A DNA stretch of 64,000 bases from Tetmemena sp. SeJ-2015 (lineage: Eukaryota > Ciliophora > Spirotrichea > Sporadotrichida > Oxytrichidae): the NCBI GenBank assembly GCA_027382625.1, contig JAJKFJ010021470.1:21776-85775 (forward strand), in the 5' to 3' direction. This document shows, piece by piece, positions 4,326-62,942 of this stretch. The notes below the pieces were generated by a model. That model saw only the letters and a list, made by a program, of their open reading frames with translations. It was not told the origin of the DNA and did not search any database. The first letter of the stretch is position 1. Each line of letters begins with the position of its first letter. Made by a program: the position numbers and the translations under genes.

Positions 4326-4742
<417 letters not shown>

Positions 4743-5151: not shown

Positions 5152-6843
5152 TCAATAAACTTTCATTCCTTTTTACCTGTGCTTCTAATTGCACATCCTT
5201 ATATGCTTTTCAGCAGCTAGCTCGTTGAATTTCCTTTTGCAGTTAGGACACTATTTTCTGTCATCAAATTATGATGCTAAGTTTGTGTCTGGAATCCCTC
5301 CTCCTCCACCTCTTGCTGCTTGCATTGCTTGTCTAAATTGCTCACTCTTCTATCTCCACTTAGTCGATTTACCTTTCTTATCTACTTGCATTCCTCTTGT
5401 CTATTTGACCTCTTGAATCTTACCAGGCTTTGAGTCTATTTTTGTTGGCCTTGCCTTTGACTATGGTCTGCCACTGTTCCTCGATTGAGATCTAATTTTT
5501 TAAAGCTCTGATACTTTTTCTAGAATCCTACTTCTATTAGGCAACGCTGGAAGCTTAGTTTCACTTTATTCATCCTCATTATCCTAGCTAAAGTTTTACT
5601 GGTTTGTTATTGAAGCGCAGCTTTTTAGGATGCTATAAATTTTTCTATGATCCTCTATGTAACCTCTTTCTTCTCGGTATGAATCAAAATTTTCTGCTAC
5701 AGCTTCATTATCTATGTCGTTCTTAACTTGATAAGACCCTGAGCCCTTAAGATAATTATAAGTACCAAATAAGTTAACTCAATTTATTTAAGGGGCATTT
5801 CATATTCTCTGTCTTTTTGTTGTTTCAAATTGCTTTATCTTCTATTATTGAGTGGAGGGTCGTCATAATAGTCATTCTCTAAACTTTGTTTCGGTTGATT
5901 TCTCTTCTAATTAATTTTTGGAAAACTAGAATGGATTTCTTCGTTGTTATCTAGTTTCGATTTTCGCTCATAATTGTAAGGATTTATCTAACCATCTTCT
6001 CCATCAAAAGAAGGCTAAAATTATTATGCTTAATAGTCTTAATAAAAAAATAAGCTGAGAGTTTGATCGACCTATATTAGTTTGCTGATTTAGCTACCTT
6101 AGCTTCATTCTCGCTAAACTTAAATTATTCGATGGAATGATTTAAAACTATTCATAAATAGTAAGTTATCTAATCTCAAAATTATTTGATGATTGGGAGC
6201 TTTCCCTTGTTAACTTATTGATTCTGTCGTTTTCTATTAACTCCATCGTCCTCATCTTCAATGAGAGTAGTTATATTTTAAGTTTTAGGGTTGATCTAAA
6301 GAATGAGTAAACTAGTTTTATTGCTACAATTGCTTCTTTACTTCCAGCTTTTCAAGCAACCTTCTTCCGAAAATTAAATGCTTTTCATTATTGAGGAGTC
6401 CTCCTCCCTAGGAATTTGAATGACTCATTCCTGAATTATTAGCATACTTGATACATATAAACAAATTATAAGTGGAATAAGAACTTTAATTTGTTCCTCT
6501 TATAGGGATCGTTTGGATTCCATTAGGAGGTGTCATAGCTTCTAAGATGATCTGGAATGAAAACTCTGCGAAAATTTTCATTATAATAGGTTCCCAAGTT
6601 TTCATGGTTCATGGTAGACTCATCATACTCTGTGAGCTATCCATTTGAATTTATCAAATGATAACAAAGAAATTTCACATTTTGATCTAGCTGAATATTA
6701 GTAGGATAAGGAGATGGCTGCTCTTTTATTTCAATTTTGCTTTTGAGAAGCTTCAAATTCTACTTGAGAACAGGTATGTTTACTGGTGAGGGAGGAGTGG
6801 GTGGAATCAAATATCCCTCTTCATCATATCTCTCTTCGTCCAT
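5152..6843 (-). CDS. C2HC zinc-finger protein (ZC2HC1-like finger)
   Basis: The start ATG at 6843-6841 opens an acidic, Pro-rich N-terminus (MDEERYDEEGYLIPPTPPS). The C-terminal part carries a C-x2-C-x12-H-x4-C finger (CPNCKRKF ... HIRMC) typical of the zf-C2HC_2 family, preceded by a basic Ser/Arg/Lys-rich region and a short Gly run, and ends in TGA at 5154-5152. The middle (about 5500-6430) switches frame several times with AT-rich segments, as expected for IESs; I did not fix their edges. The finger class usually binds zinc and is found in proteins of poorly known function. Confidence 0.75.
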
Positions 6844-9056: not shown

Positions 9057-12000
9057 TCACATATAACCCTCTTATTAATAATTTGATTCACTTATTTATA
9101 AAATTTGCAACTATAATTCCTCACTTTCTTCAACTTCAACCTGGAAAGACTCACTTTAAAGGTAAAGTTTCAGAATTGAATGTGTGACTTTGTCCATAAG
9201 GAAGTAATTAACTAGCTATTATTCTTGCAATTTAAGTTAAGCCTGGAGTTATTTACTCTTTTTGATACTCTTATCCTAACAACATTATAAGATAAAAATG
9301 AGAGACTTACCTTTCCTGAAGAATCTTCGTTTTAAGTTTCAGTATCGAGTTGAATATTTACAAATTCTAACTCCTCTAATTTCTCTAAATTAAGATCCTC
9401 AACAGGAGATTATGCTAAATATGGCTAAATAGCATCTAGCCACTTCTCGATGCGATAATTAATTTCTCGCAGTTAAGGGATTTCTTCTAAGTAGATTGGG
9501 ACATATAATTCTCCTTCATTTATTAAAAATAACTGAATTTATAATAGTAAAATGAAAAAATATGGATTGAGCAGATCTAAAAGTTAGACATATGATGGCT
9601 TGTTTATATTTGTAAATGCTTCTAAGTTGAAGTCTTCTTTAGAAAACTCATTTCCTTTTGAATTGAATAGAGGTTCCTCATGTTTTGATAAATGGATGGT
9701 CCCCGTCAATTTATCGTAATTAAACATAATTCTTGAGCAACCGATGCAAAAGTAGTTAGGGATCTTATTTCCAAGAGCTCTGCTGATTCCAATGCAGTCT
9801 CCATGGAACCACTCCTAACAGCATCCACATGCAATCATAAATCCTTACCCGTCATCTCCTCTTCCGCAGATGCAGTATTCTTAATTGTCTGCATACTCAT
9901 ACTTCATAATTGGTTTTCTATAAGCGAGAGGGATCAGTTAATCTAAAGAGCTAGATGGTTATCTAAGATCTTTCATCATATGAGTGTGCTATTCTTTTGA
10001 TTCCTCACCATCCTCATCTATTTCTCTTTCACCTATTTAATTGCTTTGATCATATTCCCCTGTCATCCCTCTCATCTAATTAAGCTTTCTTCTCCATTTT
10101 TCGCTGAACTTGATGTCCCTATCATATTCCTGAGCTACTTAGTTTCTATGAGTCAAATTTTCTAGCACCTTAGACTGAATAATTTTTCGTGCCATAAGTT
10201 TCCAATATCTTAATTTATTACAGTTATATTATAAGATAATTCTCTAATGAATGAGCGCATAAATCAACTAAACTTTTGAGAATTTCAAGCTCCGGCCCTT
10301 GCACATCCAATATATTTTGAGCTTCATCTATATGCTTTCTCAAGCCTTCAAAATTTTCACCTACTCCAAGAGATTCTGAGTCCGAGCTTATTTATTCTAA
10401 CTTCAAAAGATTTTCATTCATATTATGGGCTTTCCCCGTACTCGTATCTATCTACTCTTCTTGACCCTTATTCTAGTGAGAAACAATTTAAACAGATTAA
10501 TCGCTCTAGTTACTCTTCTGAAGATCGGCAACCTTGTTCATTAAATTTTCATTAGAAGGTTTGACAGCAATAAGTCTTTTTTCAGCTATAATTCCATTTT
10601 CAAGCATAGCCAAAGTTCTATCTTTCCATGCAATAACATCTTGGTGGAAATTTTTTAGTTCAATATACTCTGCTAAGTTAACTTTGAGCCACTTCTTTCC
10701 AAGTTCAAGCAACTGCAAAATTCCCTTCATGTATCGCTAGTGCTATTCTTACTGTGAAGGATTTAATTATTCGGCTTCTCCTTTTTGAGTGCGTGAGTTG
10801 CTTTGGAAGGAATCTTTTGAATTTAAAGAAGAAGATTAAGACTCTGCTGGGTTTGCCTCTAGATTGGAAAATTCATCTAACCATTTTTAGCACAATTCGA
10901 GCTGCTTGGATAACAATTTAGAAAGCTCTTAACAATTTTGATCCTCTTAAATGTCAGGGTGATTTGAGTCTAAAAATTAAATAAAATTCATATTATAAAA
11001 AATTCAAATTAAATAATAAAGAAATAAATATGGTGTTTTAACTATAAAAAATCTCTGAAAATCTCTTTATTCACTTAATATCCCTTGTTTATTGGAAAAT
11101 TAAATGTTAAAATAAGTTTTTCTTAGTGAAAATTTAAATATTTAGGAATGAGTTTGTATTTTCCAAATTACTCAATGTTTGCTTGTTTCGATCTTTGGAA
11201 AGTTAATAATTTTATATTATAAAAATGGAAGAGGAAGACATTCAAAGAAGTAACTACTATGATGATAACTTTGGAGATGAGTATAATTCTGCTTAAAAGA
11301 GAAATATGGAAAGCAGCTAGCAAGAGTAGAATTACACATCTGAATCAGGAACAGAAGTCGAAAATAATGTCCCACTCCCTAAAACTAAGAACCAGCAACT
11401 ATTTCGCACTTCAAAAGAACATCTAGGAAATGCTGGCTAAAACGAAGCGAATGAGTCAACCAACATCAATGGATAGCTTAAATGAGAGAATATAAAGTCT
11501 GAATCAAATCATTCAAATGCAACGCCAAATATTCAGCAGTCGAGATAGTAACCACACTTGTTCAATAATAATCTGGAGAATCCTGAATTCGAATATAACG
11601 GGCAATATCAGAATGGATATCCTCCTTAAGATGCACTCTTTTCTGGCTAAATATAAGCTCCTCCTAAGATTAGAATGAAAAGGTTGCTTGAAGATGACTC
11701 ACCCTTTAAGGTAAAAATTGTGATAGAGCCTCTTGATAATCTGGTTAGAGAATACACACTTGACAGAGCTGGCTAGCATAAAACTTTGATGGAGTTCTTG
11801 TAACAAATTTGCACCGATATTCCAAATGGAACAGAATCTGTATTGGTAACAGAAGCTGAAGATAGGATGATTGTGGATGTGATGGCGATTGAAAGAGGAG
11901 AAAAGCTTAAACTAGTTAGAATGAATCCGGAGGTAGGAGTGTTTCAGAATAAGATAAGGATATTGTTTAACGAGTTCCAAAAGTCTTAGCAATAGTTGCA

Positions 12001-15000
12001 ATAGATGAAAAATGGAGGTGGTTCAATAGTTGGGCAAGGACCTTAAGGTTAGCTCATGAATGGCCATGCAGGATAAGGTTCTTTGCCTATGAGGTAGACT
12101 GGTCAAAATATTAATGGAGGTCCTATAAATGGTTATAATAAGCCAATCTTGAATGGAGGAGCTAGTTCTATTAGTGGAATAATGCCTAAGAGAAGAGGAC
12201 GGCCTCCTAAGAGCGATAGAGGAGATAGGACCAGTGAAGCCAATGGGATCTGGAAGTGGAGTTCCTATGCAAATTCAATAGTAGAATTATCATCGCTAAC
12301 TTCCTCCTGGATAATTGCAGCAGCAAAACGGATATGGAAATTATAATCAAGGACCTTCTAACTTTCGTTGATATTCTTTAATTTTTCTATTTTTCCCTCT
12401 ATAATTAAATGAATATAAATTTAAAATTATTAATGAGTCTTTCAAGAGAGTCTCGAGTTACTTCTTTTTCACCTTCTCACTTAAGTATAAGTCATGTATT
12501 CTCTTCAGCCATTTCTCTCTTCTCAAAAGTTAGTTAATCTTTTTCTTTTTTGAATTTTCAATGGGCATCACAGCCTGATCAATTAATTCAAGCTTTTCTA
12601 TCACTTATGAATTCCAGCTTCCATCTATCCTTGGTCTAGAGTTATCTTGATCAATCAGAATAAGATTTGAGGCATCTCCATACTTATCCTAGAACCTCTA
12701 AATGATTTACTCGTAGTTTGAATTCCACTAGTCTGTTCTTTCCTTCAAAACTAAGAGTAGTCTATAATCTTATGTGCATTTGAGAACCTTCAACTCATAT
12801 TCTGCCTGAGAAATGAGAATCTCCATTTATTTGCCACTATCTTTTACCTATTCTAGTTTTAAAATAACTTCAGAATCTTCTTTATCCTCTTCTTTGCCTC
12901 CTATTTTCAGATTCAACTTCAATTTGCTTAGTTTATACTGCCTTTTCCTATAAGTCTTAGATTTCTTCCTTCCTCATCACTTTCTTCATAGTCTTGCTGC
13001 TCAAGAAGATTAAGTTAATTAAATGGAAGTGCTGACTCTGGAATTCCTAAATGCTTGTGGTAATTTTTTATCAGCTATCGAGAGTATCGAATCCAAATAA
13101 GCAATTAAAAATTAAATATCGTAAGAGCAAAAATTAAAGCAGAGGCTTCATCAGTTTTTTGAATGAGTTAATGGTATTGTTTATCACCCCAAATTTTTAA
13201 AGAGACTGTCTTAAACTTAGCAAGCCGCTCAAAAATTCTTAAGAGCTTTTTGATTCAGGTGCGAGATCTATTATGGAGAGATCTACCTATTCTTCAGGAC
13301 TCTCAGCCATAGCAACATCTAAAGATTTATCATTTTGCTACTTCGCTACTGCTTATTTCTTAGGAGTATAATTTATAATATCTTATAATAAGGAGAACTT
13401 CTGAGCATATTTATGTTCTTAATTGCTTTTTGACAAAGAAATTCATACTCCTGCATTTCTTTAATTACCTCCTTGAGATCCTCCATCTCTTCTATCTCAA
13501 TTCTTAGTGATTCACCCTAAAGATAAAATAAAAAATGCCTCTTGATGCAATTCCAAGATGTATCGCTCTTCTAACTTGCTCCTTTTATCTCCTGTTTTTG
13601 AACTCATAGCTTTGCTACATTAAAAATTTATTAAATTAATAATTATTTTGCAATCTTTGAGTTCTTTAAGCACTCTTTGTAACTCTACTTGAAATTAAGT
13701 TGCCTTAATGCAAAGTTCACTAATTTTGATAATATCTTGGAGTGGTATGTCAGAAAAGCCCTTGCCCTCTCCTTCGGCCATCAGGTTTTGTATTTGACTT
13801 AGTCTAGGCCTTTTTTATACCATAGAATCTTTTCCCTTCTCCTATATTGACTCTATTCTGACTTTCTTCTCCTCCTCATTATTTTCATCTAAATTTTCCA
13901 TGTCTATATCTTATCCATCAATTAATTTAATAAAGCTTCGGATATCTTCATTTTGACTCTTCTAGGGGAAAACTTGCAAGTAGAATCTTTAAAGCTTCTC
14001 ATGCCATTCTATAAACTCAAGTCTTCTTTATAGATCTTCAGTAAGTTCCACCTCATATTTGAACATAGCCGTCTCTCTCATTAGGAGTGTGAACAGATCT
14101 TTCCTTCTTCTTTATTCCTGCTCATCCTCCAAGAACATCATCACTCTGAACTTCCATTTCTCATTAAAAGATTAGCATTCAAAGATATTTAAATATCACT
14201 TATTCATTTCTCAATATCGTCCACGTGCTCCTTGAGCTTTAGAATTTCTGGGTTTGTGATTTTCAGTGCTTCAGCCTCTGAAAGCAGATCCTTAAATTGC
14301 TATTCCTTCTTCTGTCTCTCCCGCTTATCGAGTTCTTACTATGCTTTCTTCTTTTCTAAGAATATTATTAAACAATTAATAAAGTATTTTCTCTAGCAGA
14401 TAGTGATGAGCTAATCTAACTCTCTTGTTAATTAACTTGAGTGCGATTAAATAGATAGCTTCTTATTAATTAAATAAGTGCGAGTTTTGTTGACCTTGAT
14501 GAATGCTTAATGAATTTTCTCTACTAGATTGGAGGCATCAGTTGATCGCTATTTCAGCTCTTCATATAGCTGCTCGAAGTTTACAGGCAGACTTCTAGAT
14601 TCAGCTAACACATTCTATAGCTGCTTCACATTACAAAAAAAATAACTGACCATTCTAATGAATTAAAATAAAGTTTTGAATTGACTACCTGATTCTTGAG
14701 GGCCTCAGCTTTCTCAATCCAAATTTCTGCCTTCTTTAAGTATTCCGCTAGCTAGAGCATCTCAGGTGTGACTATTTGATAGTCTCTGATTGACTGTGTA
14801 TGCATAGCGCATAACTCACTCATCTTCATTTTCTTTTCCATTGGGATTTAAGCTGCAGCCCCACCTCCAGTCTGTGGCCCACACTTCTTCTTTATCAACT
14901 TAGAAAATTCTCGAGACTTGAAGAGCTCCTACTCGATGTCAGGGGGCGTGTCAACTCTTAACTTTCTAAGCATCTGCTAGTATTGGGCTAAATCTTCCAC

Positions 15001-16723
15001 TGTAATCCTATTCAGTTGCATAAATATTAATGAATGAGTTATTATTAACTGTGAATTCTTTAAAATGAAGAGTAGTTATAGAGCTTATTCGAATCTATTC
15101 AAATCCTTGATTTAATAGTTCTCATGATTTGTTATGAAATTTTAGTCATAATATAATTTAATGAGGTAGCATATCCTGGCGAATGTTATTGATAGCTTCT
15201 TCGGCCTCAGCACTTTTGCATCCTCTTAGATCTATGACAGCTTCCATAACGATAGACTCTAGCTCTTTGTCTGTCAGTGAGTTTAAATTTCTTCTTTCCT
15301 CTCAGGAACTGCCATCACAGAGGGGTAGAGAATAATTTAAGAATAATATAATTGCTACAAAAATATTAGAATGTGAAATTTAGCCAAATTAAAGTTGTAA
15401 TCGTACTCATGAAGTAACTTCATCGCCTTCTCTTAATACCCAGCTAGAGATCCCTTAAGCCACAACCCATTACAGTTTGTATTATGGGTTTCCCTCATAA
15501 TGAAGTCACAAAGATCTAAATACTCACTCAACTTTCCATTATCGTTTCTCTCCTCTCTTGTATCAAAAACTCTTTTCTCGATAAATCTTTGCTCATATTT
15601 TTCTCTGAGTTTTCTATCTTCCTCTTCACCCTCACTCTCATCAGCAATCTTATTCTCCTAATCTTCTTTACATTCACCTTAGAAGTCTTATTTCTGTGCT
15701 TTGAAATATTCCTAATTGGTTGCTGATTCACCACTAAGCAAAGGTTCACCGTTGAATAAAACTCTTCGCTTTGGAGCAAAATTCTGTATGCCTTCTTCAT
15801 CTAATTAATCGAAAGATGCAGATCTTAATAGGCGTTTTGTACCAACTACAGCCTGCACTTTTATCTCTGAAGATGTAAGAATTGGCCTTTTGGTTGATTC
15901 TTCGTATTCTGAGTTATCTTTTCTCTCTTTCAGATATTCAGCAGGATTTATTTAAGAATACAATATTATCAAAATTAGGATAGCTCTCTTGATTAACTTA
16001 GTACTTTGTCTGATCTATTCTAGGTGGCTTCCATTAGTGGTGCAAAGGAAGATGGTTATAATGAGCTCCTCCATTATTGCTAATAAAATAATATACTTAT
16101 ACAATGAATACTCTGAACTGCAGGACCTTTCTTGGGCGGAGCCCTTTCTAATTCAAGCTTTTTCTTCATAAACCAATCAGCCGCTCCATCAAGATCTTAA
16201 TATTTCTAACCCATGACTTTCAATTAATCTTCGCTAAGTCTGTTTACATTCCCCATACTTGTGCAATCTCCCCAGTGAGGTTGACTTCCTAGGTTTTAAA
16301 ATGCTTAGTCTTAAAAGCAAAAAAAGTTGTAATTAGGTATTACTAATTACGCGCAGTAGGTCCCCTGTAGCCACCTCTTTTCCCTTTGACTTTCTGATTA
16401 CTATTCTACTGGCTTTGATTTTAGTGCAGAGTCTCTGAGCCATGCAAGTTTGAGCTAGCTATGTTGAGGCTGCTTTCTAAATTGGCACTCTCTATATTTT
16501 GGTCACCTCGCTCATAGTCCTTGAACTTAGAGTTAGTAGTAGTCTTATCTTTCTCTTCTGACTGAGTTAACAAGAGCAGATGAGGGTTTCTCAGATTAGG
16601 AGTGTGCTGTGAAATAGATGGCGACATTACATTGGCTGCATCCAAAGGTTGAGCATCAAATGAGATTCGATGGGCACTTTATTCATTCCTTGCTGGGTCT
16701 TACTTAACTTCTTCAGCACTCAT
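9057..16723 (-). CDS. Chromatin protein: ELM2-like, PLU-1-like repeats, PHD finger
   Basis: Start ATG at 16723-16721. The N-terminal 130 residues are Ser/Asn-rich. After an intron and probable IES comes a basic/acidic region whose end (about 15450-15380) resembles the ELM2 tail. A 6-bp pointer (AATGAG on +) joins this in frame to a helical region at 15022-12440 with PLU-1-like motifs (LAESRSLPV, then Trp-containing helices). A 7-bp pointer then joins 12440 to 10971, where a second PLU-1-like unit (LLELGKKWLKVNLAEY) follows. A 4-bp pointer at 10211-10248 leads into a C-terminal PHD finger (YCICGRGDDG, CGCCQEWFHGDC, YFCIGC). PLU-1 plus PHD is the C-terminal layout of KDM5 demethylases, but no JmjN/JmjC domain is seen. 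Inferred role: histone-tail reading in a chromatin complex. Stop at 9059-9057. Confidence 0.75.
10211..10244 (-). other. IES, pointer ATTA (TAAT on +)
   Basis: A 34-bp AT-rich segment. TAAT occurs at 10211-10214 and 10245-10248. Removing one interval joins the PLU-1-like frame to the PHD frame without a stop. Confidence 0.75.
10972..12440 (-). other. 1.47-kb IES-like interval enclosing another gene, pointer TGAGTCT
   Basis: TGAGTCT occurs at 10965-10971 and at 12434-12440. On the minus strand the frame upstream (ending TTG AAA GAC TCA) and downstream (GAC TCA AAT CAC) meet in phase through this 7-bp repeat, and both sides are the same kind of helical protein. The enclosed 1.46 kb contains the complete plus-strand AT-hook gene. 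It therefore behaves like an eliminated segment for one gene while carrying the coding DNA of another. Confidence 0.75.
11225..12371 (+). CDS. AT-hook, Gly/Gln-rich protein
   Basis: Start ATG 11225, stop TGA 12369-12371. The N-terminus is acidic and Asn/Gln-rich. A globular part (about 11670-11970) contains ordered beta/helix-like sequence. The C-terminus is Gly/Gln/Asn-rich with an AT-hook core, PKRRGRPPKS, near 12185-12215. AT-hooks bind the minor groove of AT-rich DNA, so a nuclear DNA-binding protein is likely. Two oddities: an in-frame TGA at 11483-11485 within otherwise continuous frame, and a 1-nt frame change near 12215-12230 just after the AT-hook. Either an unresolved small IES, a sequence error or decay could explain them. 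The whole gene lies inside a pointer-bounded interval of the minus-strand ELM2/PLU-1/PHD gene. Confidence 0.8.
15039..15165 (-). other. IES, pointer CTCATT (AATGAG on +)
   Basis: A 127-bp segment. AATGAG occurs at 15033-15038 and 15160-15165. Removal joins the ELM2-like part in phase to the PLU-1-like part. Confidence 0.75.
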
Positions 16724-16991
16724 ATCTTCTATCTGTTTAAAGGAAAAAAAGTAGATAGATAAAAGTTAGTACGGCCTATAAAGCAATTAAGAGATGGTTT
16801 ATCAAAGAGATGACTCTTACGGTAGGTAAGCTTAGTTAGCAATTAATAAATATATTATAAGATTTGCGCGATAAAATCATCTAATAAGTTAATATTTTCC
16901 AAACAAACTTAAACTCTAATCATATAAGTATGCTAACAAGTTGCTTCAACTCAAACAAGAGTTGATATAATTTTGTTCATTCCAGTGTTTT

Positions 16992-17631
16992 TCATCTGTA
17001 GTTGTTAGGAAGCGAGGCATTATACTCGTTGCCCAAACCTCCATGACTGCCAATTTGAGGTGCCCCATAGCTTTAATGAGACCTTTCTATACCTTCACCT
17101 CCAACTGACTTGGCATATAAATCCTTGCTTTTTATAAATATGGAATATTAAAATGCTTGTCTATGGAATCAGAAGGTCCATTAAGTTGTCAAAGCGCACA
17201 AATCCATCTCCATGCACATCCAGAATGTTAAGAAAGTTTGTCACCTCTTCCTAAGTGAGTGGATCACCAATCCTAGTGAGCACATGGCGCATTTCTTCAA
17301 TTGGTAGCATACCGTTGTCGTCTTTATCAAAGACAGCAAAAGCATTCTTGATTTCCCCTGGGTTGTCTTCCTTACCAGTTACCTCTGCCATGCATGCGAT
17401 GAAGTCATTCAAGTCTATTGTGCCTGTTCCATCAGGATCGTACTTTCTAAGAAGCCTCTTCACTTCTTAGTTTGAGACAAGGGCCCCCATAGCTCTCATT
17501 GCCAATCCGACGTCCTCTGCTTTCATAGTGCCATCTCCATCTCTGTCGAAGAAAATGAATGCCTCCTTGAACTTTTCCATCTCTAAGTCTGTGAATTTGT
17601 CATCAAAGCCAATCACTGGGTCCCTTCCCAT
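16992..17631 (-). CDS. Four-EF-hand calcium-binding protein (calmodulin/centrin-like)
   Basis: Four EF-hand loops in order: DRDGDGTMKAED, DPDGTGTIDLND, DKDDNGMLPIEE and DVHGDGFVRFDN. Loop 3 has full Ca2+-ligand character; loops 2 and 4 lack the usual Glu at position 12, and loop 4 looks weakest. A calmodulin-superfamily Ca2+ sensor is the clear family. I used the ATG at 17631-17629 (MGRDPVIGFDD). An in-frame stretch continues slightly upstream to an AG that could be an intron acceptor, so an extra 5' exon is possible. The C-terminus has an unusual Gly/Tyr/Asn-rich tail of about 35 residues, reached only after removing a 28-bp IES. Stop TGA at 16994-16992. Confidence 0.92.
17131..17158 (-). 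other. IES, pointer AAGCA (TGCTT on +)
   Basis: A 28-bp AT-rich segment. TGCTT occurs at 17126-17130 and 17154-17158. Removal joins the last EF-hand helix in frame to the Gly-rich tail. Confidence 0.88.
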
Positions 17632-17720
17632 ATATCCGTCTTGTCCGACCTATCATTCTTAAATTGATATTTATGCTATATTTAAAATTGAATTAAATCT
17701 TGAAAATAATTGAATTCAAA

Positions 17721-21516: not shown

Positions 21517-22436
21517 ATGGAGTCCACCGCACAAATGAACGCCCACCTCAACTCCCCCACCAAGACTACGGGCTTTGGAGCAAGTGGAAATCTCACTTCC
21601 TCCACTTCCCAAAATACTCACTCTCATAAAAGCACACTAGCTGATTAAATGAAAGTTGTATATTTCTCAAGGATCAGGATCGCCAAAGTCCCAAGATGGA
21701 GGATACGAAGGATTGAAAATTACCTTAGTTCCCTCAAGCAATAACCACCATGAGGATGACCACATGCTTTTAACCTTTTATATCACATTTAAATTTTGAT
21801 GCAGGATGATGACCTCGAAGCTTTGGCCGATGATTTGGAGTTGCTAGAGTATCAAAGATCTCGCTCTACCCCCAAGGTAGTGATAGATGAGTTTGGCGAT
21901 GATGAAGATGAAAAATAATCAGCTTTCAGAGAGCGCCAAGAGAAGCAGAAGCATGAAATGTTTACTCAAGTAAGTCAATCCTTTCTTTCCTCTTAAGAAG
22001 AAGAGAGCCTTTTAAACGCGATAAGAGCTGTTTTGTAATAATGATACTAGTTTTATGAGAATCATGTGCAGACTCGCTTGAAGAACCCTAAATACTACTC
22101 ACTGGAGGAGATTGCTCAGCATGACTCAGAGTTAGACGCCTGGGCCGTGTTAGACGGAAGAGTTTATAACCTGACTCCTTTCATACCCATGCACCCAGGT
22201 GGAGAAAAGATAGTCAAAGCTTTCGGCTAAGATATTACTAAAGTTTGGCGTAAGTTTTAAAATTTAATACCTCTTCATTCCCTCCAGTACTATTATTTGC
22301 ACTATGTCAACCTCTTAAATTTTACTCTATAGACGAGTCACACTAGGGAATCAACTTAGACGACACAGTCGTCTCCCTTTTATTCGAAGGATATCTCAAA
22401 ACAGAGGAGAACAAGCACTTGCACGACTAGGAATGA
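21517..22436 (+). CDS. Cytochrome b5 heme-binding domain protein
   Basis: ATG 21517 opens a Ser/Thr/Asn/His-rich N-terminus. Two IESs (pointers AAG and GATGACC) must be removed to keep the frame. An acidic coiled region follows, then a GT-AG intron (about 21971-22070). The cytochrome b5 fold is then read: YSLEEIAQHDSELDAWAVLD, GRVYNLTPFIPMHPGGEKIV. HPGG carries the first heme His; WHESHQ after a second intron (about 22250-22332) supplies the other. This domain position resembles the N-terminal b5 domain of NCB5OR-type proteins, but no reductase domain follows, so it is probably a stand-alone electron carrier. Stop TGA 22434-22436. Confidence 0.9.
21656..21671 (+). other. IES, pointer AAG
   Basis: A 16-bp AT-rich segment. 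AAG occurs at 21653-21655 and 21669-21671. Removal restores a Gly/Ser-rich frame. Confidence 0.75.
21762..21814 (+). other. IES, pointer GATGACC
   Basis: A 53-bp segment between GATGACC copies at 21755-21761 and 21808-21814. Removal joins HHEDD directly to LEALADD. The GCAG before the second copy could also serve as an intron acceptor. Confidence 0.8.
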
Positions 22437-48981: not shown

Positions 48982-49066
48982 CAAAACCCCAAAACCCCAT
49001 AATATGATAAGAAAGTGAAAATAAGTTGTGTATAATTAATTTCTTTATTAATACTTATAATCATGC
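48982..49066 (+). repeat. Left inverted terminal repeat
   Basis: Starts with two C4A4 units and continues ATAATATGATAAGAAAGTG; reverse complement of the right end. Preceded by ATT. Confidence 0.92.
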
Positions 49067-49359: not shown

Positions 49360-49590
49360 TCCCACTCACTGAACCGTTGAGCCAAGTCTGTCTCTATGGG
49401 AAGTAGCCTGCAGTTCCTTGCACCGATGCTTCCTCAATGTTTTCTCTTTTACAACTCTGTTGAAGTCTATGACAGTTGCTTGACTGGTTCAAAGTTTATC
49501 ATGATGTTCTCTGGCTTGAGATCCCCTGTGCACGAATCCCAACTCATGCAACTCCCATCCTCCCTCAAGGGGGTTTCCAGTAAAATTTGG
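49360..49590 (-). pseudogene. Transposon kinase-domain remnant
   Basis: On the minus strand, GFVHR is followed after a one-base frame disturbance in a G run (49520-49525) by DLKPENIMINFEP, the catalytic loop of a protein kinase. It fits the kinase part of the TBE zinc-finger/kinase ORF. Upstream sequence (49600-50700) is too homopolymer-rich to read, and the zinc fingers are not seen. Either the gene is decayed or the sequence is unreliable here. Confidence 0.7.
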
Positions 49591-50734
49591 GGCCAAAAAA
49601 CAAAGTATTGGTTTGGCCCCCCCTGCTGAGAAATTTCTTAGTGGTTTCCGCCCAATTTGGGAAAGGGGCGAATGGGCGATTTTTAAATCTTTTGGGAAAT
49701 TCGAAAAGGGGGAAACCCCGGGCAAGATGAAAAAAGGGGTTACTAGTTAAAGGGTTTTTCCCCCTTTCGCTTTCTCACATTTTCAGTTCGTTCGCGAACT
49801 AAAAGACCCTCTTTTTTCCCCTTCTTTTAAAAAAGGGTATTCGAAAAGGGGGAAGATTTGAAAAAAAATTTTTCTTCTTGTTGATTTTTTTGGAATTGGG
49901 AAAGGGGAAAAAATTGTTAAAATAAGGAAAAAGGAGTTTGTTTTTGGGTATGTTTTATTTCAAATTTAAACCCAAATTTTGTTCTTTTTAAAAAATTTTT
50001 TAAATTTTTTTAAATTTTTGGGCTTCCTTTTTGAAAAACCCCTTGTCAAGGTTTTTTTTTCGGGGGGTTTGCCTCTTAGCTGGCACCATTTTTTAAAGTT
50101 TTTTTTATCCTCCAATTACAAAACTCAGCCTTTTGGTTTTTCTTTTTCCCCATTTTTTTTTTTTCTTGAGGAAACCCCAGATTGAGAGAATGTTGCTCAC
50201 AAATTTTTTTTTTGGGGGAAAAAAAAAAAAAGGAAAAAAGGGCCCGTCCACTTTCTAATGCTTCTTTATAGATCTTTAATTTTTTGTCTGAGTGGCCCTT
50301 CCCTTTGAGGGTCCCCCGTTTTGGGGGCCTGAGGATTTCGAACTGTCGTTAAACATTTTTTCCCCCTTTAAAAAAGGTTTCTTTTTCCTCATTGGGTTCC
50401 TGGGGGGCAGCAAAAAAAAAGAGGAGGATAAAAAAAGGGGGGGAAAATTTTAAAACGCCCACCGATTTTCTCAACTCTTGGCTTGAAAAATTTAAAAAGC
50501 AAAGTTCTTCTGCTGAGCTCAAGTTCAGAAAGACCCCTTCTTCCCTTTGCATTTTAGGGGCACACGGGGTTTAAAAAAATTGTTTTTTTTCCAAACATTG
50601 GGTTTTGGGCTTTTGGGGGTTGGTTTTGCTAAGGGTTTTACTTGTCTTTAGCTGGGTTTGGTTGGGGCCATTTAAATTAAAATTTTTAAATTTATGAAGG
50701 TTTTTAAATTTAAATTTTTGTATGCTTTTCCCCC

Positions 50735-51307
50735 CTTGGGGGTGCAGAGCACTCACAAAGGAAAACATCAAAAAGGCAAAAGATGTCAGTTTTTGATGTT
50801 TTTATCTTTCTTATTTTTATTAGATAGCCCCATTTTTTATCTCTTATTTTTTCTTGATTTTTGTTTACAAATTAAGTTCAAAACGCAGTTATTGGCTACA
50901 AAAATTCCGTTGGAAAACATGTTAGTAATGTCGACTTTCACGAAAGGTTAAAAAATGCTGATACTAATTTCTTTGGGCAACCGGGGATTGAACTGCTACT
51001 TAATTTTAATTTTCCCGGGCAATTTTAGTATTGCTACAATTAAGTTTTAAGAAAGAAAAATTAGAATTTAAATTTAATGGCCCACCACATATAAAAAGGG
51101 GGCTCCATTTTTACAATTTGGACCTGATTGTTAGTTCTCTAGGCCTCTATCAAATTAAGCTTGTCATCCTAAAAGGATCTCACTATTAAATAGTAAGACT
51201 TTGGGGCCCCCGTGGGTCGGATCTAATCAATTTTAATAATAATAACTTTGTTTTTTAAAAATTAGAACAAACGAGTACTCGGGCAAGTTTGGTGGAAAAC
51301 TTGAATT
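50735..51307 (+). repeat. Error-laden copy of the 34719-35220 repeat
   Basis: Same landmark order as the clean copy. Differences concentrate in homopolymers. Places that repeat inside the TBE-like element. Confidence 0.85.
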
Positions 51308-52312
51308 TTAAAGGGGTTTAAAGAGGGGAAAGGGGGCAAAAAGTTGAGGCAACAGGTTTTTTTTGGAAAGGAAAAAAAAAAAAGAACCTTTTTTTTTCAA
51401 AAAACAGGGTAACCCATTCCCCCGGTAAAAAATTTTCCCCAATTTAAATTAAATTTAACCCCCAAAAAATTCTTAGTTGGTTTTGTTCCTTCCGACAATG
51501 TTTTGGAACAAAATTTTCTTTCCTAAAAGGGGCAATTCTTGCGGGATGAGAAAAAAGCTCTAAAAAAATTTCGATGTAAACATGAGGGGGAATCCCAAAA
51601 AATTTGAGACTCAGCAAAAATTTTTGAAAAAAATTTTTTAAAATGGGGAATTTGGGGGTTGGGCTTTTTCCCTTTCCCTAACAAGGAACAACTTTCAAAC
51701 AAGTTCCAGAACAAAGGGGTTTCTTTTTTGGCGTCCTTCCCAAACTGCTTCAAGTACCTCAAAGGGGATCATTGAAGATGCACACGGGAAAGTTTTCCTA
51801 AGTAGAGGAGAACGACCCAAAGAAGCAAGGAATAGTTATCAGCGACGAATGGTTTTAGGGGAGCTTCAGAAGTATCCCACTTCTCAGTAAATTTTTTTGA
51901 GTTTTTAAAGTGTAGAGGGAAACTGGGACTGGGATTTTACTTAATGAAGGGGAAGCAAAAAAGGGATTTTAGAAAACCGGGAAACAAAATCAAGCATCGG
52001 GTGAGCAAGCGTTTTATTTCCCATACAAACTTAGGGGCGACGAGATGCACATAGGGTGCGGGGGCAGGGGTCGAATATGAGGAACTAGGTCCATCGGCCC
52101 AAAAAGAAAAGAGAGAAAGGAACCTCTTAAAAAATCCCTTCTTCCTAGATAAGCAAAAGTGAACTTAAGTCATTTAAAGGGTTTAAATTAAAAACTTTTC
52201 CTAAAAATTCCACTTAACCTTATCTCGCACATAACTTTGTTCCCCTTTTCTTTTCCACTCTCTTTTCAAATACTCACTATTAAACCCTGTATCGATTTGC
52301 TTAAACATGCAT

Positions 52313-52588
52313 TTAATTTATAGAGGGAGCCCGCTTCTTATAGTGTCCCTTTAAATAGTTCCAGTAAAACTCAATGCCGTTGAACTTTTGGGGAGTATGG
52401 AACCTTAAAAACAGGAAATGATGTTCAAATAGGGGTATGCCTTTTTCGCTTCCCTTTTTTTCTTGGTACGCTGAGTTGTCAACGAGTAAAAACGATCTCA
52501 CCTCTGGATTTCTCTCTGAGTTCTTTAAAAAACGCAAAATACTGCTCCCCGCTTGATAAGGGGAGGAAAGAAGGGAAAAAAGCTTCAA
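52313..52588 (-). pseudogene. Transposase C-terminal part (DDE)
   Basis: The minus-strand frame contains VRSFLLVDNSAYQ and PQKFNGIEFYWNYLKG. These match the second Asp (VDN) and the final Glu (N-x-IE-x-YW) motifs of IS630/Tc1-type DDE transposases, the family to which TBE transposase belongs. It is separated from its N-terminal part by the 2.8-kb inverted duplication, so the gene cannot be read through in this copy. Confidence 0.8.
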
Positions 52589-52810
52589 AACCTGAGTCTT
52601 CGTGATTCCTCAAGTAACGCACTTGTGTTATATTTACTTTCTACTCTTTAAAATTTATTTTTATTCCCTGGGGGCTTTGACCCTTTTTCATGAAGGGTTT
52701 TTTGTGTGTGAACACAGCTTCGACAGCACATTTAAAAATTTTACGCTAAACCCTCTCACACCTGGGAGCTAGTTCGTAATATATTTCAGATTATTTTTTA
52801 ATTTAAAAAT

Positions 52811-54103
52811 TTAATAGATGATCATTAATGTATAGATTTAATCCTAAAAATTGGTCATCTTTCAAATATTTAAGATTAGTTTTTGCGAGGCTAATCTACT
52901 TTTGAAATATTAATTCATTAGAAAGTTTGGTAGTCTATAGCATTGAACAAAGAATGTAATTGCATAAGGAATTCCTTTTTAAGATATGATTGCACCAAGA
53001 AGAGATAGACAATCATCCCACAAGAGAAATCATATCATTTGAATGATTTTCAGTCATAGGATCTATCATCTTAGTCAATCTTCCACCCAATACATGAACC
53101 AGCTCAAAAGTACTACAATTTGCAAGACTTCAAGAGAGCGCGTGTTGCCCTGCACTCTGATTTGAAAGAAACTCAATAAAGCCTGGCCTTCTTATATGAC
53201 CATAATTTATGAGTTCAAAGGCCATTTTAGATGCTGCCCCAATCAACTGACTTTGATGCATGATCACTAAGTTCATACTAGCGACGACATGCTCTGAACC
53301 CCAGAAGAAGAGAGGGCAGCCAAGCTTTCATTCACGGCCCTCCTCAAAGGTTTCACAATTCGTGACTCTATCCAGTTTGGCAAACTGATTGCCAGGCTTC
53401 AACATACTCACCACGAGTAAAGTCTGACCGAACCATTTCAACTGGACAAGATGATCTTGCCGAAGTGGCGAGACCGCAAACGTGAGCTCATATTTCACAT
53501 ATCATATTTCTTTTCTTTTTTGTCTTTAGTTTTAGATGCCAGAGAATCACCACAAAATGCACAGAGAGTTGGAGCCCTCATCACTGAGCGCGAAAATAGG
53601 TTGAGGAATGCGTAAAGGAGAACGGAAGCTCATTTTCGAGCAGCATGAACTAAGGCCCATTTTTTCTCCATTCTTTATTGGCAGTGATTGAATGGCGTTG
53701 ATAATTTAAGAGTCAGTCCTTCAGTCACTTGCGATCTGACAGCAAAGCGTCACAGTGGATTTAGAATCAAGCTCAGCTCTCATTCATTTCAGCCGTCATC
53801 CGAATTCTCTGAGTACAATCGAAGCATGGAAAAATGTCCAAGTCCCCCAGCGATCACTCAATGCATCCGAAGAAATCTTTTAGCAAAGAGGTCCATCCAA
53901 TTTTCAAAACTGAATGATAGTACAGAATTGAATGCTGCCATGCGCAGCCTGCATGATTAATGCCCTTTAATTTATAATAATTATTAACTCTTAAATATTA
54001 TTATTCTTAATCCCCTCTTCATTGGTGGCGCTAATCCTTTTAAATTATTGGGAGATAATATATAACGACATAATAATTAATTATATCTAACCAGTCAAGG
54101 CAA
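52811..54103 (+). repeat. Left arm of a 1.29-kb inverted repeat
   Basis: Matches 54301-55596 in reverse complement nearly base for base; position x pairs with about 108405-x. A few differences exist (for example one Ser/Arg codon change near 53772, and a G-run length near 53847). The arm contains a plus-strand ciliate-code frame (about 53302-53640: TPEEERAAKLSFTALLKGF, LIARLQHTHHEQSL) and another at 53688-53960. No family recognised. Confidence 0.92.
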
Positions 54104-54300
54104 GTGGCGCTCAATAAGATGTCTGAAATTAATAATGTGTTAAGACCAAATATGTGAATTGAACTTCATCCGGTAGTTGAGTAGCTTATAGTATTATTAC
54201 TAGAGAACTAAATATTGAAGATTTGGATTGTGGATTCCTGAATAAATTAAATGAAATCTCCTTTTATTTTTTCTCCTTTGAGCAAATATTATTACTTGAG
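54104..54300. other. Single-copy centre of the inverted repeat
   Basis: About 197 bp between the arms; AT-rich, no ORF of note. Confidence 0.8.
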
Positions 54301-55596
54301 TTGCCCTGACTGGTTAGATATAATTAATTATTATGCCGTTATCTATTATCTCCCAATAATTTAAAAGGATTAGCGCCACCAATGAAGAGGGGATTAAGAA
54401 TAATAATATTTAAGAGTTAATAATTATTATAAATTAAAGAGCATTAATCATGCAGGCTGCGCATGGCAGCATTCAATTCTGTACTATCATTCAGTTTTGA
54501 AAATTGGATGGACCTCTTTGCTAAAAGATTTCTTCGGATGCATTGAGTGATCGCTGGGGGGACTTGGACATTTTTCCATGCTTCGATTGTACTCAGAGAA
54601 TTCGGATGACGGCTGAAATGAATGAGAGCGGAGCTTGATTCTAAATCCACTGTGACGCTTTGCTGTCAGATCGCAAGTGACTGAAGGACTGACTCTTAAA
54701 TTATCAACGCCATTCAATCACTGCCAATAAAGAATGGAGAAAAAATGGGCCTTAGTTCATGCTGCTCGAAAATGAGCTTCCGTTCTCCTTTACGCATTCC
54801 TCAACCTATTTTCGCGCTCAGTGATGAGGGCTCCAACTCTCTGTGCATTTTGTGGTGATTCTCTGGCATCTAAAACTAAAGACAAAAAAGAAAAGAAATA
54901 TGATATGTGAAATATGAGCTCACGTTTGCGGTCTCGCCACTTCGGCAAGATCATCTTGTCCAGTTGAAATGGCTTCGGTCAGACTTTACTCGTGGTGAGT
55001 ATGTTGAAGCCTGGCAATCAGTTTGCCAAACTGGATAGAGTCACGAATTGTGAAACCTTTGAGGAGGCTGGTGAATGAAAGCTTGGCTGTCCTCTCTTCA
55101 TCTGGGGTTCAGAGCATGTCGTCGCTAGTATGAACTTAGTGCTCATGCATCAAAGTCAGTTGAATGGGGCAGCATCTAAAATGGCCTTTGAACTCATAAA
55201 TTATGGTCATTTAAGAAGGCCAGGCTTTATTGAGTTTCTTTCAAATCAGAGTGCAGGGCAACACGCGCTCTCGTTGAAGTCTTGCAAATTGTAGTACTTT
55301 TGAGCTGGTTCATGTATTGGGTGGAAGATTGACTAAGATGATAGTTCCTATGACTGAAAATCATTCAAATGATATGATTTCTCTTGTGGGATGATTGTCT
55401 ATCTCTTCTTGGTGCAATCATATCTTAAAAAGGAATTCCTTATGCAATTACATTCTTTGTTCAATGCTATAGACTACCAAACTTTCTAATGAATTAATAT
55501 TTCAAAAGTAGATTAGCCTCGCAAAAACTAATCTTAAATATTTGAAAGATGACCAATTTTTAGGATTAAATCTATACATTAATGATCATCTATTAA
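54301..55596 (-). repeat. Right arm of a 1.29-kb inverted repeat
   Basis: Reverse complement of 52811-54103. It ends about 15 bp before the transposase N-terminal piece. Confidence 0.92.
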
Positions 55597-57666: not shown

Positions 57667-60600
57667 ATGGAACGAAGTTCATAAAATCGCCAAAACCCTA
57701 ATCAAAATGATATTGTCAATCTGGCTGCCTTACAAAAGCTAAGTCTTGAAAAGAACTTCTCATATTAGCCAGTTTAGAATATTAACTTCACTCAGCTGCA
57801 TAGCAATACTCGGGAAACTGTAACTCTCACCTTTTTGGAAGCGACTGAGCTGCCTGAGGTTCATAAGATGGGATCGGGAATGGCCCAAGCAAGCAACTAG
57901 CCGTCATATATCTATGAGACTAAAAGGGCAGATGATGACTAAGCATTTATTTAATTCTAGTTATATAAGCTTATAAAGAAATAGAGGCAAAGCTCCCATA
58001 AGGGATCAAAATAGACAGAAATCTTATAAGTAACAATGAAATATAAAGCAGGCTGAGTTCCTTAGAATAGACTATTTATTTTACAGACTGCTGATATTTA
58101 GGTCCAAGGGAATCTAGTTTTTGTAGCTGACAAAAGAGGCCAAGAGGAAGAGACCTAGGTCATCATTTGTTATTTATTAATTCATTCACAAAGATATGTA
58201 TGCTCACTTTGGACATGGCAAAGCAATAGAGAAGATAACTCCAAATTAGACTATCTTTTATGGATCCAAATCTAATAGTTGTAAAGTTGAAAATGAGCAG
58301 GAGATCATTGAATTTATAATCATATAAGATTAAATAAAGTGAGAATTGAATTTCTTAGAAACTCTTAAGATTTCAAACATATAGAGAATATAGAAAAAAT
58401 AGCAGCAGGCGGTGAGGCAATAATTTTTAAGATAAACTACGTAGGTTTTGAAGAGGTAGTTATTAAAGTCCCACTTATCAAATTCCAAACCTAGAATAAA
58501 TTAATTGAAGATAACTTAATGATTATTTAAGAAGGGTTTTAGTGATCTGATGAGAGAGACTCATATGATAAAGTGCATATACCATGAAGATTACGTAGTA
58601 GAAATTAAAGAAGAAGTAATAGAGTTGGATCCCGTTACAAAGGATATTCTCAGATATTGCGTTATTGTGGAGCGAGCTAAGTTCTCACTTTATGATCTCT
58701 ACAATTTAAAACAGAGTGTAAATGACAAAAATTAAAAGTAGGGACTTTGGTTTGACCCAAACTTTAGAAAAGAAAAGTATGAGAGTTTTTCTGTCACCAA
58801 ATTTTTCTTCTATTTCGTAGAAGCTCTAGAGGCACTTAACTATCTTCACTCTTAGGGAGTTATTTACCAAGATATGAAACCTTAGAATTTGCTTGTGTTT
58901 AGAAATCAGAAACTTAAAATTGGAGACTTTGGAATTTCCCTACTTGTGGATGAAAGTAAAGACAATTATAAAATCAAAGGCATTTCTCCAGACTGGAGCT
59001 GTCAACAGATAAAATAATAATAATAATAATAATTAACAACGCATTTTAGACGAACTAGCGTCTTGCGTGTTATATGTTAAACTTAGGGAAGTCATAACGA
59101 CCACTCCCGTGTTAATTATCACTCATTTTCTCCTTCTTTTCCCTTCTGGTGTTGTGAAATTTGTCTCTTAGGAGAAAATGTCTTACTTCTCCTTCTGACC
59201 GTGATTTTTCTTGCTCAAAACTTCCGTGACTTTCATGTAGAGTTTGTCATATTCACTCCTGACATCGCCGTTAAATTTTATTTCGTTTAGGGCTAAAAGA
59301 ATGTCGCTTAGTATGTCTCGTACAACAGCATCGGTTTGTTTAGGTCTGTCAGAGGAGAGCCTGGTATGTAGTAGGAGTTCCAACCAGATTCTCTCCCACT
59401 CTTCATTGTCTGTTCCCATAGCTGGGATAGGTCTGTCTGTGTTGAGTTCAGCAGCTAGGGTTTTCAGTCTTTTGTCCATTATAGAGTGGTAGAAATTAGC
59501 ATCGTCTTGGTGTCTGTAGATCAGTGTCATTTGTGAGATACAGCCTGGGGCTTCCATAATCATGTATTCTTTCACTCTTTACATTATAAATGGAGTTTCC
59601 AGGATATGTGCTGAGATGTGTCCAAGTATGCTTTCAACATTGATTTCCTCCCAATCGATTTGGAGATCCTCTTCCAAATCCATAGGGAGAAAATAGTCCA
59701 GAATTTCCCTGTAATTGATTATGATTTTTTCTCTTCTGTGGTTCCATTCTTAGTCAACTGATGTATTTTAGATAGCCTGTTTAATTCTCTTGTATTTATT
59801 TACCTTATTAGCCACCCGTATCTGGTAGTCAGATTCACAGTCCAGGATTGTCTTAATCAAGAGTTGTTAACCAACTATGATCTCTTGTTTCAGGTCTTAA
59901 ATCATTTAAAGGACGAGGTCATAGTCATTGGATCTTGGGTTAAATTAGTCAAGAAAACTGGCCAGTTTTCCCGACCAGATTTCTGTTCTGTTCTGGAGGG
60001 TACTATATAGTAGGTTGGCATGGGGGTAGGTAGTAGGTAATGGCGTCTTGTTCAAGATTTCAGGATCAAACTCAAACTTGAATTCTTTAGGTTCCTTCAT
60101 CTTTATTTCTTCATCTGAGGGCATCTGATGTTAAGGTTCGATCAGGCTTTAGAATTTTTCCCATGTTAAGGCGAAGGATTTAGTTTTCCATTTATCGTCC
60201 TTGTACATATGTAATGGGTAGCAAAATTGGTAGCAATGATGAGGGATCCAAGAGATCTGGAACCCCAGTCAAATTCAGCTTTACCTTCCTCGTACATTAA
60301 ATCTAGCGAGGTCATAGCATAGTTTGTTTAGCCAGTGATCGAGTTGAGTTGTGATCAAGGGTAAGATACTCTTAGGTGGAGGGGTTCCAGAGAGTTCTTA
60401 ACCAAATTTTAGCAAGTAGTAGACTTTAGCCGATAGGAAACTGAGTCCTCCTCTTTTAAAGGCTAGTAAGTACTTGCACGATAAATCCAGGTCTTATCGT
60501 TTGAGGTGTTGTTGGAATTCTACGAAAACCTTGTGGGTTGTGGAATCAAAGGAAGAGGGAAAGCTTCCCTAGATAAGCAGTCACTCATAGCACTCACCGT

Positions 60601-62942
60601 ATAGCCTATCTATTAAGATTCTAAATTTAATAATAAACATAAATGTTTACATAATTTTAATTATTTGTAAACTTTTCGAAAAATTTTACCAAAATGACTG
60701 GTCGGTCTTAGTCTCACATTTTCTCCGGATATGATAGTTGATTTGAATAATTTTATTGATAATTAGGTTAATTTAATATTTGAGTGATGGTCAATAGTTG
60801 GAGGAAAAGTATCTGCCTCTCATGCAATCTCTTAGCACTTAGGCAAAAAATTTATTCTAAGATAACGGAGTTCCCTTAAATTTTGAATCTCTTTATTAAG
60901 CACATAATTTAAATGAAGTTTTGCATGAGGCTAAATTGTTTCTTACCTCTAATTTAGACTTTCTAAGTGAGTATTTTTCCCAGCTTCTACAAGAAAACAA
61001 GTTTGCAGGAGCTTACGAAGTTGGGCGGTTCATCGAAAGGGAAATCGATACTATAAGTTATTTATCCATCTATCTATCTTTATTATTACTTCTATTTTCC
61101 AGTTAACTTTTCTTATCCATCAATATGGAAATTCTGAATGAAGTTTAGAAATTCCCTATAGTATTTGAAATATAGTAGATGATTGGAGAATTCAAATATC
61201 TAGAGGGTGACTTTCTCGTAGCGATAGAACTTTTTGAAAAGGCTGAGGCAATTTATAAAAAGTTTGAGACTACTCTTTTAGGTTCCTATTCGATTGAAAT
61301 GTAAAACAGACTTAAGCGAGCGAACTTTGATATCATGGTAAATAAGGCACAAATCTATATCAACTTAAGTGAATTCGAAAAAGCGCAATATAAATTAGAT
61401 TTTGAATAGGGATTAAATTTATAGCAAAAATTAATCTAGGTTTATCTACAGATGTCGATTTAAGAATATGAGAATAATATACCCATCTATGAAAAGAAAC
61501 TATTGAAGCTAGTAGACTTAAAGGGAATTATGGCAATGACTCAGGGTAGATTCAACTAATCACTTATACATTGAATTTATTAACGAAGCACTTGCATGTT
61601 TCAATTAGTATATAACCCTATCATAGCACCAATAAACAGACACCTTTAAAATTCACAAGTCAAAGGTAAATACTCATAAAAATTTGGGAATGGTTCTCTA
61701 TAAAATGGGACAGTTTGATGAATCGTTAAAGAATTTTTTTAATTTACCTATTTAAGCAATTTTGAGGAAGCACTTAAGCTTGCAGAGCAGGAGGACGGAA
61801 AATTTAGTGCACTTAATTTAGACATACTTATGAGCATAGGGAATGTTTATTTCTAAAGGAAAGAGTTCGATAAGGCAAATGAAACTATCACTAAAGCTCT
61901 AAGTGCTTGCTAGAATATTTATGGAGAAAGAAATACTTTTACTGCAGAAGCATATAGATAAATGGGTGACATTTAATTTCCTGTAGATTATTTTATGTTC
62001 ATTATGTCCAAATTTTCGCCTGAAGGTGCCTTGGTTAAATACGAGAAAGCATAGAAAATTTTTGATTCGATATATGGCGAAGACTCTGTAAATCACATTA
62101 TGGTTTTCAACAACATGGCAGCTCTTTTTTCAGATCTAGAGTAGTTTTCTAAAGCTGAGGAGTTATGTTTAAAAGCTTTCAGAATCTCAGAAGCTCTAAG
62201 AGGCAAAGAAAGCTTAGACTGTGCTATGATATATGCTAATTTGACAAGGATTAAAATGAAAGAGAAAAAATTAGAAGAGGCTCTTGACTATGCAGAGAAA
62301 GCATACCTCTTGTTCTTCATAGTTTTATTATTCCGTAAGTTGAAGTCACCTACAAGTCAAGAGTCACTCAATAGATTCACTGTCTACATTGTACTAAAAT
62401 CTAATGCTGGGAAGAATTAAGAGGCAATTATAGAATGTGAGGAAATGCTTGCTCTCTGCTCGAAATCAATTGGATAGAATGAGTAGGTAATCAAGCTAAC
62501 CTAAATCCTATCTTAATTAAAGATGAAGCAAGGGAATCTCTCACAAGGCCAACAGCTGCTCAAATAAAATCTTGATAGAATCAAACTCTAGCCTGGTGAT
62601 CTTCAAAACAGGCTGAAATTTGATACACTTCTAAAACTAGCTCAAAGTAATGAAGCATTAGGGAAACCGGATGCAATTAAATACTACTTGCAGGCCTTAG
62701 AAGTTTGCGCAAGTCCAGCTTTTGAATTCGAAATTAACAGATGTATTGCATTCTTCTACTGTAAAAATAAACAGATAGATAAAGGGATGGCATTCTTAAT
62801 CAAAGCTGAAAAAATTCTTATGGAAAATAAGGATAAAGATCCCTTATTCAATAAGTTCGAAATTAATTTCCTAAAACCAATTTAAGAACTCAAAGCAAGT
62901 TTTATTTAATCAACTATAGATATTTTTAATATGAAGATGTGA
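57667..62942 (+). CDS. Protein kinase with C-terminal TPR repeats, interrupted
   Basis: ATG 57667 opens a Gln-rich N-terminus. A 36-nt GT-AG intron (GTAACAATG...CTTAG, about 58029-58064) removes an apparent TGA. Kinase motifs follow: IAAGGEAIIFK (Gly loop), VVIKVP (VAIK Lys), VIYQDMKPQNLL (HRD loop, with His-Arg replaced by Tyr-Gln) and IGDFGIS (DFG). After SPDWSCQQ near 59010 the frame meets an (ATA)n tract and about 1.6 kb of opposite-strand coding DNA. It resumes near 60795 as EEKYLPLMQSL. Then a 51-bp IES, then tetratricopeptide repeats (LEGDFLVAIELFEKAEAIY, RKEFDKANETITKALSA, YGERNTFTAEAYRQMGD, KAEELCLKAFRIS) to TGA 62940-62942. Most of the kinase C-lobe is not seen here. Confidence 0.75.
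59015..60620 (-). mobile_element. Insertion in the kinase/TPR gene, possible non-LTR-type element or nested gene
   Basis: Begins at an ATA/TAA microsatellite (59015-59037). Base composition is clearly more GC-rich than the flanks. It is coding on the minus strand, so the tract would be at its 3' end, as in retroposon tails. I see no clear target duplication and no reverse-transcriptase motif, so a retroelement is only one option; a nested gene is another. Confidence 0.45.
59183..60590 (-). CDS. Unknown protein in the insertion
   Basis: A minus-strand frame is open for about 360 codons from near 60260 to TGA at 59185-59183, with TAA/TAG as Gln (for example LIEPQHQMPSDEEIKMKEPK, LGHISAHILETPFIMQRV, YRHQDDANFYHSIMDKRLK, LELLLHTRLSSDRPKQT). 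A related piece further 5' (about 60570-60290: HKVFVEFQQHLKRQDLDLS, LSAKVYYLLKFGQELSG) is in another frame. One TGA near 60567 and one frame change near 60285 interrupt it, so IESs, introns or decay are present. Mostly helical and charged; no domain recognised. Confidence 0.6.
61071..61121 (+). other. IES, pointer TTATCCATC
   Basis: A 51-bp segment. The 9-bp repeat TTATCCATC occurs at 61062-61070 and 61113-61121, the longest pointer I see. Removal keeps the frame and joins the helical spacer to the first TPR. Confidence 0.88.

Follow-up and report, generated by a model that had tools for sequence, protein, structure and literature searches.

A probable long eliminated interval with an opposite-strand, gene-like insert in a germline PLU-1/PHD gene of Tetmemena

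A stretch of 64,000 nucleotides from the ciliate Tetmemena sp. SeJ-2015 (assembly GCA_027382625.1, contig JAJKFJ010021470.1, positions 21,776 to 85,775; called the window here, and the source of all coordinates below unless stated) contains a minus-strand gene with PLU-1 and PHD domains, the outer gene, whose two halves are separated by an interval bearing coding-like sequence on the plus strand, the inner gene. The window is best explained as micronuclear (germline) DNA of a spirotrich. TAA and TAG are read as glutamine and TGA as stop in the genes studied (code 6), and the outer gene is broken up by short AT-rich stretches (G+C 0.16-0.30) flanked by direct repeats, a form that spirotrich germline DNA takes (PMC5940158). 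The assembly searched, of which the window is part, comprises 146.2 Mb in 5213 contigs; C4A4 repeats are present in it, some of them at contig ends. A dense cluster of these repeats lies at 3805-4156 of contig C2828 (G000).

The outer gene extends from about 16723 down to its stop codon, a TGA at 9059-9057. Its structure comes from a gene-model search that combined codon scores, jumps between pointers (the short direct repeats bounding eliminated DNA) and short introns, and that gives a product of 1617 residues. The upstream half (12434..16723, minus strand, with a proposed ATG at 16723 and the pointer at its other end) carries the PLU-1 domain as well as short internal eliminated sequences (IESs) and introns; the downstream half (9057..10971, minus strand) ends at the TGA and carries a PHD finger. 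In Pfam, the PLU-1 match of the best single piece spans about 14629-14213 and profile positions 18-165; with E 4.5e-5 and 23.2 bits it does not reach the family cut-off of 28.5 bits. A weak further match lies at about 15063-14701 (E 0.034). A joined piece of 486 residues raises this to E 3.4e-14 and 53.2 bits, above the cut-off, a gain due in part to the summing of two stretches, the better of which covers profile positions 18-245. That stretch spans the 9-bp pointer TGAGAAATG of a short IES at 14164..14213, removal of which lengthens the match, so that the 14213-14164 deletion has protein-family evidence in its favour. The PHD finger lies at about 9874-9737 (Pfam E 1.2e-7, and 2.2e-7 on the joined piece), and the downstream half also matches PHD fingers in a PDB sequence search. 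These two domains had been assigned to the gene in the initial annotation, together with an ELM2 domain; the latter found no Pfam match in the pieces scanned within 15274-16801. PLU-1 followed by a PHD finger is the order of KDM5/JARID1-type proteins, and the outer gene shares it; it differs from them in that no JmjC, ARID or ELM2 match appeared in its scanned pieces, which covered part of the frames.

Five short pointer-bounded deletions on the minus strand belong to the outer-gene model, at 15162-15117, 14671-14646, 14213-14164, 12951-12905 and 10235-10199, with pointers of 7, 7, 9, 6 and 5 bp, and the presence of short IESs within this gene is supported. An intron of 35 bp (GTAAGT...TTAG, 9276..9310, minus strand) is close to the modal intron length of 37 bp in Oxytricha trifallax (PMC3558436). 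Two regions of the model are weak: the part beyond about 15300 in the upstream direction, with a jump of 565 bp and an intron of 173 bp, and 13720-13054, where the two introns placed, of 118 and 247 bp, open with GTG and GTC and not GTA. Other candidate short IESs read by eye in 13700-13000 (AGG, CTCCT, TTGCT and GCAAA) were not picked by the model. Just upstream of the outer gene, at 17158-17652 on the minus strand, lies an intact, centrin-like EF-hand gene.

The two halves of the outer gene meet at the repeat TGAGTCT, read as AGACTCA on the minus strand. One copy (12434..12440) ends the upstream half and the other (10965..10971) starts the downstream half; the repeat is located in the sequence as first reported, and the join through it stays in frame (...LETLLKDS|NHPDIQEDQ...), again as the initial annotation had it. 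Between the copies the coding signal switches to the plus strand. The interval proposed to be eliminated, 10972..12433, measures 1462 bp, or 1469 bp with the pointer copy that would be lost along with it. Removing it gives a continuous coding frame, as expected for an IES, and the 7-bp flanking repeat falls within the 2-20 bp range used for pointers (PMC5940158). The best-scoring coding segments of the outer gene stop at 12437 and resume at 10970, and the turning points of the cumulative scores are 12437 and 10971. These change points were computed independently of the repeat, and their coincidence with its two copies is what lifts the repeat above chance. The training set of the codon table behind them consisted of 1379 codons from eight segments; both flanks of the outer gene were among these, but neither the last codons adjoining the junction nor any plus-strand sequence. 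TGAGTCT is also the only in-frame repeat of at least 6 bp between the two boundary zones, and the 12440/10971 junction was picked by the gene model under all five of five penalty settings. Of the readings of this locus, the one with most support is that the minus-strand gene holds a long eliminated interval bounded by pointers.

Could the interval instead be a spliceosomal intron? The intron would then measure about 1.4-1.6 kb and enclose an antisense gene, and a single macronuclear chromosome would carry the whole. A T-rich TTTTTAG does stand just before 10970, and the zones searched contain 18 GT-AG pairs that are open and in frame, but introns of O. trifallax average 90 bp and reach at most 549 bp, and those seen by RNA-seq have A almost without exception as the third base of the donor (PMC3558436). 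The best 8 of the 18 pairs, 1385-1571 bp long, start with GTC or GTG, so none of these eight has the form GTA...AG or a length in the O. trifallax range, and they score at most 26.0 against 29.7 for the pointer join. An intron is barely credible on these grounds.

The plus-strand signal inside the interval falls into two coding-like segments, 11225..11446, which opens with an ATG at 11225 (19.6 bits), and 11486..12259 (33.7 bits), both of them outside the training set of the codon table. The G+C content is 0.378 over 11225-12371 and drops to 0.174 at 10972-11224 and 0.113 at 12372-12433. The translation contains PKRRGRPPK (12185..12211, plus strand), an AT-hook-like motif; a Pfam scan of the inner protein gave no match, and a PDB sequence search with part of it gave best E values of only 0.49 and 0.5. 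A structure predicted for an inner segment from its sequence with no alignment had a mean pLDDT of 41.6 and was discarded. The interval leaves 253 bp 5' of the ATG and 62 bp 3' of the stop. In O. trifallax the stretch ahead of the start averages 266 bp, with a minimum of 35, and that behind the stop 210 bp, with a minimum of 10 (PMC3558436); next to these figures, the flanks of the inner gene are compatible with a nanochromosome.

Together, these features suggest an outer gene with a long IES at 10972-12433 that carries an opposite-strand gene destined for its own nanochromosome, a reading that we hold, by a slight balance of probability, to be the right one. In macronuclear development the two AGACTCA copies would recombine, one being kept and 1469 bases dropped, and the outer gene would become continuous on its own nanochromosome. 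Further copies of the locus would meanwhile be processed to give the inner gene, with its AT-hook-like motif, a small nanochromosome of its own; the locus would then be nested, with an embedding index of 1. The parts of this reading differ in strength. The repeat, the in-frame join and the switch of coding strand at the repeat copies are seen directly, and the long IES with its gene-like insert on the opposite strand is probably real. The excision itself is inferred, as are the retention and function of the putative inner gene.

Several observations weigh against this reading, both at the junction and within the inner frame. By itself the 7-bp repeat is expected by chance and proves little: when boundary zones of 152 and 104 bases were shuffled 1000 times with dinucleotides preserved, 912 shuffles held a repeat of at least 7 bp, and in 579 of the 1000 there was one in frame. 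When the zones are tightened to 31 by 31 bases around the copies, a repeat of at least 7 bp in any frame appeared in 163 of 2000 shuffles, and over both strands of the window TGAGTCT occurs 16 times against 9.70 expected, a count reached in 6 of 100 shuffles. Forbidding the junction costs the gene model only 3.7 bits (187.4 to 183.7), with an 8-bp repeat at 12425/10827 taking its place. The codon scores on the flanks of the outer gene are partly circular, the table having been trained in part on both of them. Searches of the assembly with one piece of each outer half (12440-12889 and 10302-10970), in which the best candidates were scored, returned only the pieces themselves and no insert-free copy, and the outer protein (residues 1-1300 of 1317) had no homologue at E <=0.001 when the 7997 top word-sharing candidates were scored. 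The inner protein likewise had none at that threshold among 792 candidates. The protein database seems to hold few ciliates, and these missing homologues would then say little for either protein.

A chance repeat would suit a locus with no long excision at all, in which three genes simply adjoin, the upstream half ending at a TGA near 12347 and the downstream half starting at an ATG at 10989. Both outer frames are indeed open as far as these positions. On the other hand, the coding score drops inward from the repeat copies on both sides, the upstream frame would overlap the end of the inner gene, and PLU-1 followed by PHD suits a single protein. Three adjacent genes are quite improbable.

Within the inner frame, the reading as an IES with a gene bound for its own nanochromosome is opposed by a TGA at 11483..11485 (plus strand), which breaks the frame, and by a further change of frame needed at about 12150-12260 to reach the stop at 12369-12371. 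The initial annotation had placed a whole AT-hook gene at 11225-12371; the coding-like character of its two segments stands, whereas as read directly the gene is not complete. Several repeats could excise the TGA in frame, for example those at 11454-11495 (AGTC) and 11428/11515 (AAATGC), and none stands out. For the frame break, 15 solutions exist with pointers of at least 3 bp and 3 with pointers of at least 4 bp; the latter are no commoner than in two intact genes, 65 zones of which gave 4.06 on average. The inner gene may have IESs of its own, with candidates for the frame break at chance level.

The same two breaks would be expected if the interval were an IES with a decayed gene, the inner frame being a pseudogene with no product. 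Elsewhere in the window the frames of the histone H3, EF-hand and TPR genes and of 59135-60208 stay open, which would fit decay at this one place. The coding score is nevertheless still high on both inner segments, and assembly errors or small IESs could account for the breaks; decay appears improbable. A somewhat stronger contender, although still an unlikely one, is an IES with a germline-limited gene (TGLO), one that would be transcribed as the macronucleus develops, only to be eliminated along with the IES, and that would never become macronuclear. A DNA-binding protein would suit such a gene, and an internal start could rescue its frame. In searches of the assembly that scored the best candidates only, both the interval DNA (plus 12372-13500) and the inner protein (11486-12256) returned self-matches alone, and the lack of a second copy of the interval counts for this reading as it does for the favoured one. 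However, a TGLO should, by our inference, be readable with no IES removed, and the frame from the ATG at 11225 has both the TGA and the frame break. Were these two breaks introns, they would be unusual, as TGLOs are intron-poor (8.8% and 6.4% of two sets; PMC8495736).

A variant of the favoured reading, in which the long IES carries a gene for its own nanochromosome, does away with separate DNA copies: the excised piece of about 1.46 kb would itself gain telomeres, such that one cut mends the outer gene and frees the inner chromosome. The spare flanks of 253 and 62 bp permit the excised piece to be the precursor of an inner chromosome, without showing it, and we consider this variant very improbable. 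The initial annotation concluded that excision has to be locus-specific or sequential. For this to follow, both products must form, and in that case the situation would be the one already known for nested loci.

Other features of the window lie outside these two genes. On the minus strand, a histone H3-like gene is found at 4332-4721 (Pfam Histone E 7.2e-46), called H3-like from its sequence, and a C2HC-type zinc finger frame at 5164-5724 scores 26.4 bits, just below the Pfam cut-off of 27. On the plus strand, 22057-22233 is a cytochrome b5 domain segment (Pfam E 1.7e-12), and a TPR gene at 61764-62897 has an open frame with two inserts, both hydrophobic and rich in phenylalanine, which are possible in-frame IESs. 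The sequence CAAAACCCCAAAACCCCA at 48982-49000, with ATT just before it, resembles a terminus of a telomere-bearing element (TBE). None of ten frames scanned at 49437-54665 matched a Pfam family at E 0.01.

Nested germline loci, invoked for Oxytricha in the initial annotation, are well documented there. Among 15,811 macronuclear contigs of O. trifallax, 1,301 contain nested macronuclear-destined segments (MDSs) of others (Braun et al. 2018, PMC5940158); 2,281 of the same contigs have MDSs inside IESs of others, and 1,847 contigs are embedded only (PMC5940158). Nesting also occurs in Tetmemena (PMC9797194). In spirotrichs, B-type processing is described as an MDS of one chromosome lying within an IES of another, with 236 genes in O. 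trifallax (PMC10901763), far below the 2,281 contigs of Braun et al. (PMC5940158). Germline-limited genes inside IESs have been described as well (PMC8495736). Russian doll loci were called with macronuclear contigs and B-type loci from micronuclear and macronuclear sequence together, and TGLOs are absent from the macronucleus, whereas the present locus is known from germline sequence alone and its inner frame is interrupted. With the TGLOs it would share protein-coding sequence inside an IES of a macronuclear locus (PMC8495736), and with B-type processing one locus within the IES of another (PMC10901763). If confirmed, it would add one more compact, opposite-strand nested locus of a single layer, and a simple site at which to ask whether one DNA molecule yields both products or separate copies are used; alone, it leaves the picture of ciliate genome rearrangement unchanged. 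The kind of locus is already known, and this is probably one further example: as in the Russian doll loci of O. trifallax (PMC5940158) and Tetmemena (PMC9797194), a gene appears to lie in the pointer-bounded IES of another, in a single layer.

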